A program made the position numbers and the translations under genes. A stretch of 64,000 nucleotides of DNA from Heterostelium album PN500 (Eukaryota > Evosea > Eumycetozoa > Acytosteliales > Acytosteliaceae): assembly GCF_000004825.1 (NCBI RefSeq), contig NW_008805075.1, forward strand, positions 931,788-995,787. Direction: 5' to 3'. Below the pieces are notes generated by a model, which was not told the DNA's origin, did not search any database, and worked only from the letters and a program-made list of their open reading frames with translations. This document shows, in pieces, positions 29,645 to 63,600 of the stretch; positions within the stretch are counted from its first letter, which is position 1; each line of letters opens with the position of its first letter.

Positions 29645-29718
29645 GTCAGGATGGTGTAGTTGGTTATCACAAAACCTTAACACGGTTTGGGTCATGGGTT
29701 CGATTCCCATTCTTGATA
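29645..29718 (+). tRNA. tRNA-Val (anticodon AAC)
   Basis: A 74-nt cloverleaf can be drawn by hand. Acceptor 29645-29651 pairs with 29711-29717 over 7 bp including two G-U pairs, and A29718 is the discriminator. The D arm is 29654-29670 with GG in the loop. The anticodon stem 29672-29676/29684-29688 has 5 perfect pairs. The loop TTAACAC gives anticodon AAC. The variable loop is GGGTC. The T arm ATGGG/CCCAT has loop TTCGATT. There is no intron. The internal B box (GGTTCGATTCC) is intact, so RNA polymerase III transcription is expected. Confidence 0.93.
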
Positions 29719-29729
29719 CAAATTTTACA

Positions 29730-29767
29730 AATTAAAACCCGTAATGCGCGCATTATAGGTTTTAATT
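29730..29767. repeat. 38-nt near-perfect loopless palindrome
   Basis: The outer arms 29730-29739 and 29758-29767 (AATTAAAACC/GGTTTTAATT) and inner arms 29742-29748/29749-29755 (TAATGCG/CGCATTA) pair perfectly, with only a 2x2 mismatch (CG opposite TA) between them. It lies 12 nt past the tRNA-Val gene. Its GCGCGC core is highly unusual in such AT-rich DNA. It could extrude as a cruciform. Confidence 0.8.
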
Positions 29768-29799
29768 TTTTGCGAACAAAAAAAAAAAAAAAATTGCAA

Positions 29800-30282
29800 C
29801 GAAATTATTATTATACCAGTTGGCTATCTCAAATCTATATTGTAGTCTCACAGCAGTTCCTTTCCTTTATCAAACGTATATACCACAAGTACTGTAACTA
29901 CAGACTTCGTAATTGGAAGCACTCGTGCATCAAGTTTGACGGTCCTATTTGTACTACTGTCCACTTCACCCACCTTACTGCTGCCATCGTACATTCGTTA
30001 TGGCAGGCGCTGTCCTGTGAAATGTTTGGTGATGGTACCCATTACAAGCTGGAAAATACCGTCAAGAGAGCAGTCACCCATTACACCAAATTAATCGATG
30101 CCAATTACCACAAGCTTAACTTCACGATCGCTAATTCAATCTCCCAAGGAGTTACTGTCGATTGCTCTGCATTAACGCGTAAATTTAAATCTGATTGGAA
30201 TCTTAATCCTTCCAACTACGTACCACCACTTTATACTGTTGTTCATCAACACGCAACTACTGTTAGATCTATTCTATCCTAA
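29800..30282 (+). mobile_element. Retroelement-like coding fragment A
   Basis: Open frame of about 160 residues with clearly higher C content than the surroundings, containing FLSFIKRIYHKYCNYRLR and TVHFTHLTAAIVHSLWQAL. It has no supported start and begins about 80 bp past a tRNA gene. Composition and codon use resemble fragment B downstream, which has a retroelement-type zinc finger. I infer both derive from non-LTR retroelement ORF2, but fragment A has no diagnostic motif by itself. It ends at TAA 30280-30282. Confidence 0.4.
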
Positions 30283-30309
30283 TACTACTCAACTTATTAA
30301 TTAATAATT

Positions 30310-30310
<1 letters not shown>

Positions 30311-30374
<64 letters not shown>
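30311..30374. repeat. AAT microsatellite
   Basis: About 20 units of AAT/ATA with one break, lying between retroelement fragment A and repeat copy A. Such triplet runs are common in dictyostelid DNA. Confidence 0.85.
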
Positions 30375-30376
<2 letters not shown>

Positions 30377-30383
30377 TTTTATT

Positions 30384-30500
30384 GGCTATATTTCTCACGG
30401 CCTGTGTGAGAATGTAAATATAATATAAAACACGAACTAGCAGGTTAATATCAATACCTGCAATTTGTTGACTGATCATGAGTCAACAAATCTTTTTTGC
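30384..30500 (+). repeat. 117-bp structured repeat, copy A
   Basis: It begins GGCTATATTTCTCACGGCC, ends CTTTTTTGC and is followed directly by about 24 A. It can fold into three consecutive hairpins: TTCTCAC/GTGAGAA, GCAGGT/ACCTGC, and an 11-bp stem ATTTGTTGACT/AGTCAACAAAT with loop GATCATG. Copy B at 31582-31698 matches it with about 7 differences. It looks like a small structured RNA or a SINE-like unit; which, I cannot tell. Confidence 0.75.
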
Positions 30501-30526
30501 AAAAAAAAAAAAAAAAAAAAAAAAAT

Positions 30527-31443
30527 CAAATCTATTGCAGATCTATCACCTCGCCATATCTCAATCTATGCTACACTCTGTGGCACCAATTGGCAGTTCA
30601 TCTCAAACATCTGGACAACAAGATCAAATCTGCTAAACCAATTCTGATTGATGGTCTACCACCCACTCTAAAGCAAATCTACGACCACCTATTGTTCGTC
30701 AAACATGGCATTCCACCACTAACTGATGGTCAGTTCCAACTATCGCTACCACCAACCAAATTCGACTACACATCTTACGACTGTATCTTCACCTATATTT
30801 CGCTCATCAAACACCAGCGTGGACGAAACACTGTCTTCCGGTTCTTCTCTCGTTCACTTCCTGGATTAGCTTACAACAAAAACAAAGAATGTGAACTGTG
30901 CTTCACATACTGCTCTGACCCATATTTCCATACATTCTTTAATTGTCGAGCAGTTATGCACAGATTCAACCTTAACACCATTCTTGACTCCTTACAGCTT
31001 TCAGGTGGTCAACGATTCGATTGGACTATGGAAGACGCGTATCAGTTGGTTAGAAGAAAGGACAACATCACTACTCTCGTTTCACTTGTCTTTCATCAAA
31101 TCTGGAAATTCTATTGTAAATCCTATTTTGGCGGTACTCCTCTCCACGATAACAACCTACTATCTAATGAATCTATCATTAATGAATATATACAGCACTT
31201 ATCAGTAATGAAATTAATTATAAATAACAGTATCAGTAACTTACAATCCAAACTTAAATAACCAATAACCAATCAAATGTCAGCCAACTATTATTTCCTC
31301 TTCTTCATTTCTTCATTTTCAAATTAACCAATTCAATCATCAGTATTCTCATCAGCTTAACAATCTATTAATATCAATAACTAAAATAATTATAATAACA
31401 ATCAAAATAGCAATCAATTGCAGAATTATGAAAAAGTAAAAAC

Positions 31444-31469
<26 letters not shown>
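30527..31469 (+). mobile_element. 5'-truncated non-LTR retroelement, fragment B (ORF2 C-terminus plus tail)
   Basis: An open frame of about 245 residues ends at TAA 31259-31261. It contains a C-x2-C-x8-H-x4-C finger at about 30890-30955 (ECELCFTYCSDPYFHTFFNC), the kind of CCHC knuckle found at the C-terminus of L1/TRE-type ORF2. About 180 bp of 3' untranslated-like DNA and an A-run of over 20 (about 31447-31469) follow, as expected for a target-primed insertion. No reverse transcriptase or endonuclease domain is present, so the copy is 5' truncated and dead. The part upstream is a separate 117-bp unit with its own A-run. Confidence 0.6.
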
Positions 31470-31475
<6 letters not shown>

Positions 31476-31510
31476 TTCGATGGTTTACACCATCCCCAAT
31501 ATATTACTTA

Positions 31511-31560
31511 ATAAATCATTTTTTACTTCTTAAAAAAAAAAAAAAAAAAAAATGATTTAT
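31511..31560. repeat. Inverted repeat with 14-bp arms
   Basis: ATAAATCATTTTTT at 31511-31524 is the reverse complement of 31547-31560. The loop is mainly an A-run. It sits between the tail of fragment B and repeat copy B. It may be a T-run-primed or foldback product, or AT-rich chance. Confidence 0.6.
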
Positions 31561-31581
31561 GTATGGCCATATTTTTTAATA

Positions 31582-31698
31582 GGCTATATTTCTCACGGCC
31601 GATGTGAGAATGTAATATAATATAAAACACGAACTAGCAGGTTAATATCAATACCTTCAATTTGTTGAATTATCATGAGTCAACAAATCTTTTTTTGC
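31582..31698 (+). repeat. 117-bp structured repeat, copy B
   Basis: Second copy of the unit at 30384-30500, same orientation and same ends, again followed by an A-rich tract (A7TA4). The first and third hairpins remain, with one weakened stem in the middle. Downstream lies a scrap of the same retroelement ORF (31712-31742). Confidence 0.75.
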
Positions 31699-31711
31699 AA
31701 AAAAATAAAAA

Positions 31712-31742
31712 CTTCACATACAAGTACTGCTCTGACCCATAT
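31712..31742 (+). mobile_element. Scrap of the retroelement zinc-finger region
   Basis: CTTCACATAC and TGCTCTGACCCATAT here match the zinc-finger coding part of fragment B at 30901-30925, with six extra bases between them. It shows a second, much shorter copy of the same element. Confidence 0.6.
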
Positions 31743-32123
31743 GGCAACTCATTTGGTTACTTCAAAACTTGGTCATTGTTGTCCTTCTAAGGATAATAAG
31801 GTAGCCACCAAGGCAATGCTGGCACCCATCGAATAACATCAACAACATAAACACATACCATTTGAAATAGTCCATTAAAATCAATTAAATTTATTATTTC
31901 AACTAAATAAGTAAGAATAGTTGAAACAACAGATCCAAATAATAATTAACGCGACGTAAAAGAAGTCAATTAGATTATTCAGATTTTTCAATTATTATAA
32001 AAGATATTAAATTTATTAAAATTAAGATAAGAAAAGAAAGATTAAATAAAAGTTAAATTTAAAATCATAAAAAAAGGTTATTAGAAACATTTTTATTATT
32101 TTTAATCATAAAACATATGAGAG

Positions 32124-32619
32124 ATGGCAGATCCAAACGCGCATTCAACCGATGCAACAACAACTAATGAATCAACAGCATCTACGGATCCAACAACCAC
32201 CACAAACGATCTAAGAATGAGTGATCTTGAAAATAATTATAATAATAATAATCAACCTCAATCAAATACCACTTTGTTTTCTGATGTCACTCCTGCCAGT
32301 GCTCGTCCAGATCCACCCCCATCGGGATCTATTCAAATCTAGCCTGACAACATCTAAGCTCCCGATCTCCTTAACCATCACTACAGGTCAACCGGATAAT
32401 AAACAGTCATCCATGCTTAATTGTGCCAAAAAATTTACTAACCCAACTTCTTCACCATCCTTAAAACTGTTCCATTAGTCTTTGAAGGATTATAGAAACA
32501 ATCACTTCTCCAGAGTCATACCAAGCAATCCCATCCTTGTTGATGATAGTCTCTTTACTCAGAAAGAAATCTATTATGTCTTATTCAACCACAAGTTCAG
32601 GATATCAATTCATTGTTAA
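32124..32619 (+). pseudogene. Decayed ORF1-like coding sequence
   Basis: An ATG at 32124 opens a Thr/Asn/Ser-rich frame (MADPNAHSTDATTTNES) that stops at 32340-32342. Coding resumes one frame over near 32330 (LTTSKLPISLTITTGQPD), meets a TAG at 32476-32478 and continues in that frame to TAA at 32617-32619 (NHFSRVIPSNPILVDDSLF). So one frameshift and one stop interrupt an original protein of about 165 residues. The C-rich codons and position among retroelement debris suggest an ORF1 (gag-like) relic, but I see no diagnostic motif. Confidence 0.45.
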
Positions 32620-56488: not shown

Positions 56489-59400
56489 ATGAGATTTCCA
56501 AGATTATCTTGTGATTTCGCTGTTTTGTTGGTTGTTTTCGTAATTTTTTCGGTGTCTTTGGGTGTAGTTGCTGTCACAAAAGAAATATCGGACCCAAATT
56601 TACCCGGTGCTCCTAATATTACTCCCACAATGTCGAGTCTGAGTGTTACACTTGCAACAACTACAAAGGTAACTTTTGTTTATGAATCAACTCCTCCCAG
56701 CACCTTAACAAAATACAACATCGTAGTGAATGGAGTATCCGTCACAAATGACTCGTGTGTAACTGGTAATAGCTGCACAGTGACTCCTTCAAGTCCTTCC
56801 TATAGTATTTCGGTATCGGCCACCAGCGATACCTCGACATCCACACCGTTATCAGTAACCGGAGTGCTTCCACCGGTGATTAGCGTCCCAACTCTTTCAT
56901 TGTCAACAACACCAACATCAATCCTTGCAACCTATTCATCTACAGGTGGTTTTGGAGCAATTCTCTATACAATTAGTTTGGGATCATCTGTTATTCCATC
57001 GTGCAATGGAATCCAAGCGACCACTTGTAATATCACTGGATTGATGACACTCTCACTCTATACAGTCATAGTGTCCGCCAGTAATGATGGAACTATGAGA
57101 AATGCTGCTTCATCCACCAAGCTTTGGGATTATATTCAGAATCCATCTGTTTCCTTTTCCAACATTAGAACAAAATCGATGGTCGTTTCTTTTAGTGCCG
57201 GAGGAGGTAATCCGATATTGACCAGGTACTCAGTGGTTGTCAATCAAACGAATATAGATGCTATTTTCTATGCTTGCCAGGATATTACTGCAACTAATTG
57301 TACCATTCCCAATTTAATTGAAAATACACTCTACGCGGTAACTGTTTTGGCAACCAACAATGGTATTACGAGAAATGTTATTGCTTATGGTCAAACATAT
57401 CCAACGATTTCACCATTGCAAGTGACTGCCATCATTCAGATTACAACAATGACAATTTCCTATCAAACACAGGGTGGTGTTCCAGGTGAAACAAAATATT
57501 CGGTTACTCTCAATGGTAACCCAGTTCAAGGATGTCAGCAAACAACAACAACTTCTTGTTCGCTCACAGGATTAGCTCCTGGAACCAACCAAAGTATCGG
57601 TGTATCCGCAATCAATGATGGAAGTACAACTACCGCAACTTCAATTTTTAAAACTTGCGACCGTCCAACAATGTCATTTCTTGATATTATATCACTGACT
57701 ACCCAAACAGTTTCATTCACCTATTCTAGCGCAGGTGGTGTTCCAGGTTCAACAACCTATAGTATCACTGTCAACGGCAACTCCTTAGGCAACACTGGAT
57801 GTGAAAAAGTATCCCAATGTACTGTATCGAATTTGGTACCTGGTTCCGTTGTTTCTGTACAAGTAATAGCCAACAACTATGGTTTTAACTCACCATCTTT
57901 GAGCGCTATTGGAACTCTTTATTCTTTAGTGAGTGTTCCAACTGCAACATTTGTGACTACAGCCAATTCAATCACAGCAACCTATTCCACAACAGGAGGA
58001 GTACCAAATCTAACAACTTATATCGTACGGAAAGATGGTTTGGCATTCTGCACTTCAGCAAGACAATGTATTATCTCAGGATTGAATGAGAACCAAGGTT
58101 ATAACATTACAATCGAAGCAACCAACGATGGAACTACAACTTCCAAATCTTCGATTGTTTACGCTTACGCTCCACTTGCAAACCCAGTTATCAATGCAAT
58201 TGTAAGAACTAAATCGGTGAACCTCACATACTCTGCATCAGGAGGAAATCCAGATCTTACCTTTTACACTGTCAGTATCAATGGAACTGTATCGGATACT
58301 TGCCAAAATACTCGTACCAAGTATTGCTTAATAAACGTGCTTCCAGATACCACTTCTGTTTTCATAGTTACTGCAACCAATAATGGATCTTCCACAAATT
58401 CGCAAAAATCAGTAATATCCTATAAATGTATGTATTTCAATATCAATATTTACTTATTTATTCATTAACTGACTCTATTTATTATTATTTTTTAGCAATC
58501 AATTCACCATCAATTCAAACATCCAATGTTGCAATGAATTCAGTTGTTGTACAATATTCAGTTTCTGATGGTGTTCCAGGTGAAACTCTATATAGTGTCA
58601 GTTTCAATGGTACTGCTTATCCAAGTTGTCAGAATATTCAAAGTAATTCATGTCAATTGGATAATCTCAATTCAGGTACCACCTATATTATCAAAGTGAC
58701 CATGACCAACGATAATGATGTTCAAAGCACTGAAATTTCAGTAAACACTTTGGCATATCCAGATCTCTCAGTTCCTACGGTCACATACATCCAAGATAGA
58801 AATAATCTTGTTTTCAGTTTCAATAGCACTGGTGGTGCACCTAATCTATCAGTTTATGAGATCATTGTAAACGGAACAATCATTTGTTCAAATACAAATT
58901 ATCAATGTGATTTATCGGTTTCATTGACAGAACCACAATTATATAATCTCGAAGTGACAGTCAGAAACAGTGGAAAATCAGCAACCAACAAACTTTCAAT
59001 CACACTATACCCAAATCCAACATCAATACAAATATCAGCCGTAACAAATACCACAAGTGTCTATGTCGAATGGAGTCAAAGTTCAGGTGGAGAGCCAGAT
59101 AAAACTATTTACAACGCATCAATCTCATATAATGGAATCGATTGGGTATCGAAATGCAGTGGTAAACAATTAAATTGCACTTTTGATAATTTGGCCTCGA
59201 GTACACCTTATCATTTCCAAGTTTTAGTGATCAACTCTTATTTCAAACCTATCCCAACACAAGCCAGTACAACAACTCAATCATTACCATCTACAAACTC
59301 AACTTGCGCAATGAACAGAGGTGAACCATCTTGTTCAAACAATGGAAATTGTTTATCAGGTGTTTGTTCTTGCAATCAAGGCTGGACTGGTATTTTCTGT

Positions 59401-60309
59401 GAGAAACAATATACTCACACCGAAGTAACTCCAAATCCAACGACACCATCATACGACACAGCCATTCAAGGAGTTACATATTCATTCTCACTCAACAAAA
59501 TCACCGAAAAAGACAATGTTGGAACCACTGTCAAAGTATTTGATCTATCGACATTGAAATGGACAATGATATCCTCCACAAATATCACAGTTAATAATAC
59601 GGCCACCGGAAAAGAAGTCAGAGAATTGAAATGGGTATATTCAGCAATCAATCAAGCAGGACTCGATGGTGCTGAAATTACGATTCGATTCTCACAATAC
59701 TTAAAGTTGGATAATGACAGCAGTACAACATCATTCCCAGTGGAATTTGCAGGAAAAGACATTCCAGTTCAATTGGGATCAATGAAATATTATATGAGCA
59801 TCAAGAATTGGAATTTCGCAAGCAAATTAAATTACTTGGAGATTGCAAGTGTCACCACTCGACCAAAGGATGCATCATCATGCAGTTCAACAGAGAATCT
59901 TTCACAAATTGATTTCTCCAAAGATACAGATTTCACAGTTTACACAGTTGGAGATGGTGCTGGAAATTATGTTGTTGGAAGACTTGTCAATCTCGTTTTG
60001 TTGGATACGATCCCAACATTAGTTTCACACAGTTATTCGTTGAACTCAAGCAATGGAGATGTAAATATCGTTTCAAACGTTCCATATTTCTCACAACAAG
60101 TCGATGTTGATCCAGAACTTGATATGCTCGTTTCACCAACTCGTTCAAATGATAGTTGCAAGAAAGACGATAACAAATGGAAGATTATTACTGGTGCTGT
60201 CGTTGGAAGTGTTGTATTTGCTTCCGTCGTTGTTGTCTCTGCAGTTTTATTGGCAAAGAAATTTAAATATCATAGAATCTTTAGAAAGATTTCACTTTTG
60301 AATAAATAA
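56489..60309 (+). CDS. FN3-like/EGF/ComC-supersandwich surface protein, copy 1
   Basis: Exons 56489-58427 and 58496-60309 join in phase 1 to 1,250 residues. A signal anchor (FAVLLVVFVIFSVSLGVVA) opens the protein. About ten beta-sandwich repeats of about 90 residues follow, each with TYSxxGGxPxxTxYxVxxNG, a Cys pair and a VxATNxG ending. An EGF-like unit (CSNNGNCLSGVCSCNQGWTG, genomic about 59308-59408) comes next, and then a region typical of the ComC supersandwich domain (QGVTYSFSLNKITEKDNVGT; MKYYMSIKNWNF). A membrane helix near residues 1208-1230 and a short basic tail end it. Many N-glycosylation sites. A cell-surface adhesion or signalling role is expected, as for ComC/tiger-like proteins. 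The tandem copy starts 343 bp downstream. Confidence 0.82.
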
Positions 60310-60652
60310 TAAATAATTGTATAATAAGAAATAATATCAAATGAGATAATAAAAAAAAATGATTTTCAATACCTCTCTTTCTTCTTTTGGCATTTCGCTG
60401 AAATTTAAACAAGGTGATGTTTAAAATAATATCTTTTTTTTTTTGCGAAATTCTTCGATTAGAAAAAAAATACAAAAAAAAACCATAGCAACAAAAAAAA
60501 AAGGATTTTTTGATCAAAAAATCTAATTCTAAAAATTAGGGGTTTCTGATCTAAAAAAACCAACAAAAGTTTTAAAACAATTATCGTAAATCATATCTCA
60601 TAAACCATTTATTTATATCTTTACAAGATATATTATTTGAAAATAAACAAAA
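60310..60652. other. Spacer between tandem paralogues
   Basis: 343 bp of AT-rich DNA: 3' end of copy 1 and promoter of copy 2. No gene seen. Confidence 0.6.
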
Positions 60653-63600
60653 ATGAGACTTCCAAGTATTTATGGAAACTCCATAGATTTGTTGGTTGTT
60701 TTAGTAATTTTTTCATTATCCTTGGGTGTTATTGCTGCCTCAAAAGAATGGAATCCAAATATTGATTTTTTAATTGCCACGAGTGCCACTAGTGGTCCTG
60801 GTGGCGGTGGTTTGGCATCTGTCACCATGACAAGTCTAGATATTACAGTTACAACAACGCAGCAAGTAACTTTTACCTACAGTTCATCTCCTGCCAGCGC
60901 TGGAACTACAACCACATACTCAATCACAGTTAATGGCGCGGTCGTCTCAACACCTTCATGTGTTAGTGGAAATACGTGCACAGTGTCCCCAGAGCAATCC
61001 TTTACAATCACAGTGGCTGCTGTTAACAATGGCATAACATCTAATTCAAAGTCAGAGTCTGGACATCTTTTACCCGTGATTGGTGCCCCAACTCTTTCAT
61101 TGACATCAACCCCAACAACGATCCTGGCAAGTTTTTCAGCATCAGGTGGTTATGGAGTTATTCTCTATACTGTTCTATTGAATGGCGCTAACTATCAATC
61201 ATGCGTAGGAATCCAAGCCAACAGCTGTAATATGACTGGATTGACTACTTTGGCAACCTATACAATTAATGTTAAGGCGATCAATGATGGAACCACTCAA
61301 AATAGCCAAGTATCATCCACCAAGCTTTGGGATTACATTCATAATCCAGTTATTTCCCTTTCCAGCATTAAAACTACATCTTTTATTGCTTCCTTCAGCA
61401 TTCAAGGAGGAGATCCGACATTGACCAGGTACACCGTACAAGTAAATTCTGTGAATGTAGCTGATTGTACCTATACTACTTCAACGACTTGCGTGATTTC
61501 CAATTTAATTGGGAATACAGCTTACTCTGTGGATCTGTTGGCCATGAATGATGGTGTTTCAATAGTTAAGTCGGTCTCCACTATGACATATCCAACGATT
61601 TCACAATTACAAGTGACCGCCAGCATTCAGATTACAACAATGAAAATTACCTATCAAACCCAGGGTGGTGTTCCAGGTGGAACATTATATTCGGTTACTC
61701 TCAATGGTAACCCAGTTCCAGGATGTCAGCAAACAACAACAAATTATTGTTCTCTCTCAGGATTATCTGCTGGAACCAACCAAAGTATCAGTGTAGTTGC
61801 AACTAATGATGGAGGTTCAGTTTCCCAAGCCCCATTTTTCAAAACTTGCGACCTTCCAACAATGTCATCTCTTGATATTATATCACTGACTACCAAAACA
61901 GTTTCATTCATTTATTCTAGCGCAGGTGGTGTTCCAGATACACCGACAACATATAGTATCACTGTCAACGGTAGCCCCTTAGGCAACACTGGATGTGATA
62001 AAGTATCTCAATGCATGGTATCAGGTTTGGCACCTGGCTCCACAGTTTCTGTACAAGTACTAGCCAACAACTATGGTTTTAACTCAGCACCTAAGGTTGT
62101 TACTGCCATACTTTTTTCTTTAGTGAGTGTTCCAACTGCCACATTTGTGACGACAGCCAATTCAATCACAGCAATCTATTCCACAACAGGAGGTGTACCA
62201 AATCTAACAACTTATACAGTATCGAAAGATGGTGTGGCATCATGCACTTCAATAAATTCAACACAATGTGTTATTTCAGGATTGAATGAGAACCAAGGTT
62301 ATAACATTACAATCGAAGCAACCAACGATGGAACTACAACTTCCAAATCTTCGATTGTTTACGCTTACGCTCCACTTGCAAACCCAGTTATCAATGCAAT
62401 TGTAAGAACTAAATCAGTGAACCTCACATACTCTGCATCAGGAGGAAATCCAGATCTTACCTTTTACACTGTCAGTATCAATGGAACTGTATCGGATACT
62501 TGCCAAAATACTCGTACCAAGTATTGCTTAATAAACGTGCTTCCAGATACCACTTCTGTTTTCATAGTTACTGCAACCAATAATGGATCTTCCACAAATT
62601 CGCAAAAATCAGTAACATCCTATAAATGTATGTATTTCAATATCAATATTTACTTTTTTATTCATTAACTGACTCTATTTATTATTATTATTTAGCAATC
62701 AATTCACCATCAATTCAAGCTTCAGCTATTACAATGAATTCCGTTGTTGTACAATATTCAGTTTCTGATGGTGTTCCAGGTGAAACTCTATATAGTGTCA
62801 GTTTCAATGGTACTGCTTATCCAGGTTGTCAGAATATTCAAAGTAATTCATGTCAATTGGATAATCTCAATTCTGGTACCACCTATATTATCAAAGTGAC
62901 CATGACCAACGATAATGATGTTCAAAGTGATGAAATTTCAATAGGCACATCATATCCAGATCTCTCAGTTCCTACGGTCACATACATCCAAGATAGAAAT
63001 AATCTTGTTTTCCATCTCAGCAGCACTGGTGGTGCACCTAATCTATCAGTTTACGATGTATTTGTAAACGGAACAATCATTTGTTCAAATGCCAATTCCC
63101 AATGTGATTTATCGGTTTCATTGACAGAACCACAATTATATAATCTCGAAGTCACAGTCAGAAACAGTGGAAAATCAGCAACCAACAAACTTTCAATCAC
63201 ACTATACCCAAATCCAACATCAATACAAATATCAGCCGTAACAAATACCACAAGTGTCTATGTTGAATGGAGTCAAAGTTCAGGTGGAGAACCAGATAAA
63301 ACTATTTACAATGCATCAATCTCATATAATGGAATCGATTGGGTATCGAAATGCAGTGGTAAGCAATTAAATTGCACTTTTGATAATTTGGCCTCGAGTA
63401 CACCTTATCATTTCCAAGTTTTAGTGATCAACTCTTATTTCAAACCTATCCCAACACAAGCCAGTACAACAACTCAATCATTACCATCTACAAACTCAAC
63501 TTGTGCAATGAACAGAGGTGAACCATCTTGTTCAAACAATGGAAATTGTTTATCAGGTGTTTGTTCTTGCAATCAAGGTTGGACTGGTATTTTCTGTGAG

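Follow-up and report, generated by a model that had tools for sequence, protein, structure and literature searches.

A hairpin-rich unit of Heterostelium album as the putative 3' tail of a TRE3-like LINE, with a similar tail on a SINE-like repeat

In U6-L1 chimeras, a small structured unit lies beside sequence of a long interspersed nuclear element (LINE), and in Entamoeba the short interspersed nuclear element (SINE) EhSINE and the LINE EhLINE reportedly have similar 3' ends. Tail sharing between SINEs and LINEs is in itself already known. For the stringent-type zebrafish LINEs ZfL2-1 and ZfL2-2, the accessible part of PMC4176376 describes recognition of a 3' stem-loop by the product of open reading frame (ORF) 2, with the stem recognized generally and the loop specifically. 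Insertions of the element TRE3 lie 40-150 bp downstream of a tRNA gene and share its orientation (PMC5911963, accessible part), P. pallidum is reported to have TRE3-like sequences (PMC5006619, accessible part) and the untranslated regions (UTRs) of TRE5-A are mentioned seven times in the accessible text of PMC5391098. Here, a 117-bp unit is analyzed that occurs twice, as copies A and B, in a 64-kb stretch of the Heterostelium album PN500 genome (contig NW_008805075.1, positions 931,788 to 995,787, forward strand), termed the window below; the setting is a group with well-studied tRNA-targeting elements. Sequence comparison identifies the unit as the structured 3' tail of a TRE3-like LINE (family 1). 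It is quite probable that the full reading holds, in which A is a nested truncated copy and B a tail-only copy of this LINE, the tail is a signal for its reverse transcriptase (RT) and a SINE-like family (family 4) shares the enzyme.

The unit as the 3' end of a LINE

Units A (30384-30500) and B (31582-31698) are 94.8% identical across 115 aligned nt and each is followed directly on its 3' side by an A-rich tract, so the pair of hairpin-rich units reported in an earlier note on this DNA is real. Within the window, BLAST detects no further comparable copy, a covariance model gives E below 0.1 for A and B alone, and Rfam at its gathering threshold matches tRNA alone. Unit A is predicted to form three hairpins (-32.0 kcal/mol, z -4.28, with 0 of 200 shuffles as good). 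The predicted fold of unit B resembles that of A in layout and is matched by 26 of 200 shuffles (-19.9, z -1.13), and is thus not exceptional; unit B is the more decayed of the two. The unit resembles a conserved RNA structure.

The genome (39 contigs, 32.9 Mb) was searched with unit A, which returned at least 45 matches (40 of 106 candidates were scored). Searches with patterns for the left and right ends of the unit gave 92 places that were kept and copied by hand, with higher-mismatch, chance-looking rows omitted and, for one pattern result, places taken from the 100 listed of 258 matches. Among the matches listed, 51 of the 92 kept places have both ends, 27 the right end only and 14 the left end only. 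A pattern combining the linker and second loop of the tail, with up to 3 mismatches, occurs at 85 places, versus 1 for the reversed control.

A total of 56 unit alignments from 42 loci were analyzed, and the left end is intact in 50 of them. By a lenient pattern of the authors' own, the same 3' UTR (TAA repeats followed by TTTTATT or a near variant of it) stands upstream of 47 of these 50 copies, the exceptions being loci L007 and L029 and unit B. A poly(A) tail was detected by script after 43 of the 50, and the 12-mers that follow it comprise 43 different sequences among 43. Because the upstream junction is constant and the sequence past the poly(A) always differs, the unit is taken to be a 3' end. 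The earlier note had joined the unit to the ORF downstream of it, which is the wrong neighbor, since the unit belongs to the LINE on its upstream side; the arrangement that the note named as contradicting its proposal, a unit that forms the fixed end of a LINE with a constant junction, is largely what the copies display. In locus L029 (C7:1187414), a tandem repeat of the unit's own first hairpin, with AACT joints, precedes the unit, and the upstream TAA tract is absent.

A long family-1 copy at locus L043 contains ORF1, an Exo_endo_phos domain (3.7e-07), an RVT_1 domain (3.1e-20), a zinc-finger motif (recognized by eye only), the 3' UTR, the unit and poly(A). This is the domain order of a TRE3-like element (ORF1, then ORF2 with endonuclease, RT and zinc finger), with endonuclease and RT each in an open stretch of its own in this copy. 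All 31 tRNA genes found in the 42 unit-bearing loci lie upstream of the unit on the same strand; 20 of these loci were fetched with 6 kb of upstream and 1.5 kb of downstream sequence, therefore favoring upstream matches, and loci with equal flanks give 15 of 15 upstream on the same strand. In 21 of 56 rows (20 distinct loci), the element starts 32-124 bp past the tRNA gene, where starts are homology ends set by script and the 119 bp given for A include a piece of another element, family 2. The position of family 1 relative to tRNA genes thus appears to match that of TRE3.

Copies A and B in their surroundings

The features around the two units are as follows.

29645..29719, + strand: tRNA-Val(AAC) gene preceding the nested cluster on its strand (ARAGORN, Rfam)
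29805..29838, + strand: left piece of the family-2 element that the family-1 copy splits (aligned with the unbroken copy at locus L034)
29839..30525, + strand: 5'-truncated family-1 LINE copy, with the end of ORF2, 3' UTR with TAA repeats, unit A and poly(A)
30384..30500, + strand: unit A, the three-hairpin 3' tail of family 1 (genome copies, BLAST, folding)
30501..30525, + strand: poly(A) of the family-1 copy
30526..31552, + strand: continuation of the interrupted family-2 element, with ORF C-terminus, zinc-finger-like motif and its own 3' module
31553..31581, + strand: 29 bp before unit B, with hardly any other genome-search coverage
31582..31698, + strand: unit B, a more diverged tail-only family-1 copy (BLAST, folding, covariance model)
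31699..31711, + strand: A-rich tract after unit B
31712..31742, + strand: 31-nt remnant of family-2 zinc-finger sequence, with 6 extra nt (by eye, repeat D11)
31744..31776, + strand: left part of a family-1 ORF2 scrap, 33/33 identical to L043
31777..32405, + strand: solo long terminal repeat (LTR; TG...CA) splitting the family-1 scrap
32406..32596, + strand: right part of the family-1 ORF2 scrap, 89.7% identical to L043

Copy A is a 5'-truncated family-1 copy nested in a family-2 element and not a chimera, as shown by its target duplication and by the unbroken copy of its host at L034. The search for target-site duplications that the earlier note had proposed finds the 10-bp TCAAATCTAT on both sides of the family-1 copy of A, at 29829-29838 and 30526-30535. 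When the flanks are joined with a single TCAAATCTAT, they align without a break to the L034 copy, to which 30526-31447 is 99.9% identical over 922 nt. The inserted part 29839-30383 is 99.1% identical to L043; it was overlooked on the left side of A in the earlier note and is the body of the element that owns the unit. The left family-2 fragment begins 85 bp past the tRNA-Val(AAC) gene, and the 3' module of family 2 (31476-31552) differs from the unit and is also present at other places. The ORF pieces 29713-30282 and 30533-31261 have no Pfam match that passes the cut-off.

Short GC-rich palindromes (e.g. ATGCGCGCAT and CCGCATGCGG) recur at 29729-29768 and in loci L084, L093, L095, L096, L097 and L037. 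They follow a called tRNA gene at a short distance in the window and in L037, L093, L096 and L097, and are possibly a signal related to RNA polymerase III (Pol III) or a part of the target.

Unit B begins at or near unit position 1. It is most simply explained as a tail-only copy among old rearranged remnants. Treating it as a clean insertion was rejected, the best duplication candidate, CTTCACATAC, being homologous family-2 sequence 671 bp upstream and not at the left edge of B. The solo LTR that follows is flanked by the 5-bp duplication GTCAT (31772-31776 and 32406-32410). Dispersed solo LTRs of ~630-720 bp with TG...CA ends are found at 31777-32405 and in loci L052, L053, L054 and L056, with 5-bp duplications seen by eye, which read GTCAT in the window and ACAAT, AATTT, CTTCA and CATAC at the other four places. 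Elsewhere in the window, 56489-62668 contains three consecutive long ORFs (659, 627 and 671 aa), the first and third of which resemble close relatives by eye.

The earlier note had described both neighborhoods correctly on their 3' sides: an ORF beginning upstream of the zinc-finger-like motif follows A, and 31 nt from the region of that motif (31712-31742), read by eye and from the repeat list, follow B. From these it had proposed template switching, in which RT jumps from LINE RNA onto an independent small RNA and leaves a chimera like U6-L1. Tail-only copies do exist, namely unit B, which adjoins short pieces of two families, and L007, which has the 8-bp duplication GTAGTTAG and 3 extra nt. 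A fusion at A is nevertheless refuted by the duplication and the uninterrupted L034 copy; a U6-L1-type event would place the junction of two RNAs inside one duplication, and that of A brackets the family-1 copy alone. Since 47 of 50 examined copies also have their constant side upstream, like a 3' end, and copies also start at other points inside the unit, template switching is highly improbable as a general explanation; at B, it may have played a part.

A similar tail on a SINE-like repeat

Family 4 is a repeat of ~400-415 bp with a fixed head, a three-hairpin tail and poly(A). Its head-bearing copies have a common start point amid unrelated flanks, and six of them measure 398-412 nt from CCAAG to the conserved end of the tail. 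Target duplications were seen by eye in five of six head-bearing copies (L083, L084, L086, L087 and L088); in the sixth, L037, inspection by eye gave no clear one. Heads number 12 genome-wide, versus 0 for the control, and a search with the body gives at least 43 matches (40 of 41 candidates were scored). The head contains A-box-like and B-box-like motifs, identified by eye against the consensus, and is called a tRNA by neither ARAGORN nor Rfam; across 15 loci that contain family-4 or unit sequence, Rfam returns three tRNAs and one chance-level match. A called tRNA gene is present in 4 of 17 scanned family-4 loci (L037, L093, L096 and L097), always upstream and on the family-4 strand, and most of the other scanned loci have short flanks. 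Family 4 looks like a SINE that uses the tail of the LINE.

Copies of family 4 lie directly behind a family-1 poly(A) in L019, L027 and L039, and ~70 nt behind one in L020, a placement which hints that one site next to a tRNA gene was hit repeatedly.

The tails of the two families were compared in an alignment of 14 family-1 copies of the authors' choice and 10 delimitable family-4 tails (6 were skipped). Both have the linker AAACACGAACT, with a single-letter difference in one row, and are alike in most of the first loop and in TAATATCAA of the second loop. When the sequences are folded one by one, most of hairpin 1 is paired in matching columns in 22 of 24 rows, hairpin 2 in 20-21 of 24 and the outer part of hairpin 3 in 21-23 of 24. 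Between the families, 7 of 18 stem pairs are changed on both sides, compared with 0-2 in slid controls, and 98.1% of cells are paired, compared with 31-51%; the structure was derived from the same tail sequences and is thereby favored over its slid versions. Among 500 shuffles, none reaches the paired fraction and none the covariation score. A common 3' tail, as expected of a SINE/LINE pair, is thus found in structure, loops and linker, although the stem letters differ.

The tail is most likely an RNA signal read by the LINE RT. It would be the handle by which the family-1 enzyme picks its RNA and starts target-primed reverse transcription, and family 4, with its putative tRNA-like head, would use the same enzyme by keeping the loops on exchanged stems. 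A further-reaching version seems on balance rather likely: a SINE with a tRNA-like head lives off the TRE3-like LINE by mimicking the shape of its tail, so that recognition is by loop and shape, tRNA targeting is inherited, and abortive copying at hairpin edges yields tail-only units. The hairpins might instead act in transcription termination, 3'-end formation or RNA stability, as the location of the tail just 5' of the poly(A) and the T run at its end would allow. This alternative is unlikely, in that family 4 retains the structure and loops under an unrelated head, as expected if the LINE machinery recognizes them, and the tRNA genes found near either family are all upstream on the same strand.

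Along with the unequal flanks and the shared origin of structure and test sequences noted above, several results weigh against the reading of a LINE tail recognized by RT and shared with a SINE. The count of changed pairs is reached by 337 of 500 shuffles and the observed number of further pair types by all 500, so neither is informative; because the families are near-uniform and the structure comes from the same sequences, the paired changes amount to a single two-group comparison. The partner of family 4 may be some LINE other than family 1. A search via hairpin 3 for a LINE bearing the family-4 tail gave 34 places, of which 31 overlap the family-4 match list (these were inspected in part) and three remain (C25:153830, partly in L082; C27:1010289, in L028; and C5:750246). 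The nearest upstream tRNA gene is at 169-1328 bp in 16 of 56 rows, none is present within 1500 bp upstream in 19 of 56, and none was found in the 7.5-kb locus of L043. Of the places kept, 17 of 92 (13 with both ends, 4 with just the left one) are missing from the fetched set. No target duplication was found for B, and its right flank is mosaic. No family-2 match in Pfam passes the cut-off; the family is called a LINE because of its zinc-finger-like motif, poly(A) and position.

Tail-only copies and comparison with known systems

A table compiled by hand lists 18 starts inside the unit, by unit position.

Position 1: L007, L068, L072, L082 and B
Position 23: L080
Position 49: L079
Position 53: C4:966532
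Position 55: L071 and L075
Position 58: L074
Position 59: L062, L065 and C15:368553
Position 61: L067
Position 64: L062
Position 70: L064
Position 82: L076

The left flank of L072 is just 18 nt long, and L072 and L082 are interrupted further right. Omitted from the table were L012 (N upstream), C16:449792, the family-4 match C13:908618, L029 and the second partial match of L061, as well as L063, L066, L070, L078 and L081, where LINE sequence stands upstream or changes occur internally; no alignment exceeding 30 nt was obtained for L069, L073 or L077.

Nine of the 18 starts fall at 53-64, on the 5' side of hairpin 2, and five at position 1, before hairpin 1. Under uniform starts, with the window for the cluster picked after the data were seen, nine within 12 nt have P ~0.002; if L072 and B are excluded, the 16 starts left give P ~0.0007 for the largest 12-nt cluster. 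These clusters would mark where reverse transcription ends at hairpin edges, and the discrete look of the unit may be due to such endings.

The unit could also be a mobile SINE of its own, with a transcript that begins at unit position 1. The five tail-only copies at or next to that position would agree with this (P ~7e-05 under uniform starts), but the larger cluster at 53-64 fits stops at hairpin edges better than a single promoter, no A or B boxes were seen by eye in the unit, and LINE sequence stands upstream in 47 of 50 examined copies. An independent SINE is accordingly very unlikely. The suggestion in the earlier note of a small structured RNA or SINE survives in part: the structure looks conserved and a SINE-like family carries it, and the unit itself is the 3' tail of a LINE.

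As first noted, the unit is an ordinary 3' end, and the element it belongs to is of a known kind; the shared tail matters more. A tail common to a tRNA-gene-targeting LINE and a SINE-like element is a natural experiment on how RT reads RNA, with loops kept and stems exchanged. If the proposal is true, recognition would be based on loops and shape, and the SINE would inherit the targeting of the LINE downstream of tRNA genes. Among the open-licence papers listed in literature searches, titles and the starts of abstracts name no dictyostelid SINE and no three-hairpin TRE tail.

The likeness to U6-L1 chimeras is superficial, because the unit here forms the 3' terminus of the LINE itself and A was inserted, with a target duplication, inside another element. 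For dictyostelid TRE3, the accessible parts of PMC5006619 and PMC5911963 describe short UTRs and poly(A) and, unlike what is seen in family 1, mention neither a conserved three-hairpin 3' tail nor a SINE partner. In the Drosophila suffix/F element pair (PMC1868783, accessible part), a short element and the end of a LINE are alike, as are families 4 and 1. Compared with SINE/LINE pairs, the stems here differ by two-sided changes, with loops and linker kept. Stringent-type LINEs belong to another clade, and family 1, known here from its sequence, differs from them in having three hairpins plus poly(A). They resemble it in their structured 3' tail, and, as far as the accessible part of PMC4176376 describes it, reading of stems generally and loops specifically fits the conserved loops on varied stems seen in families 1 and 4.
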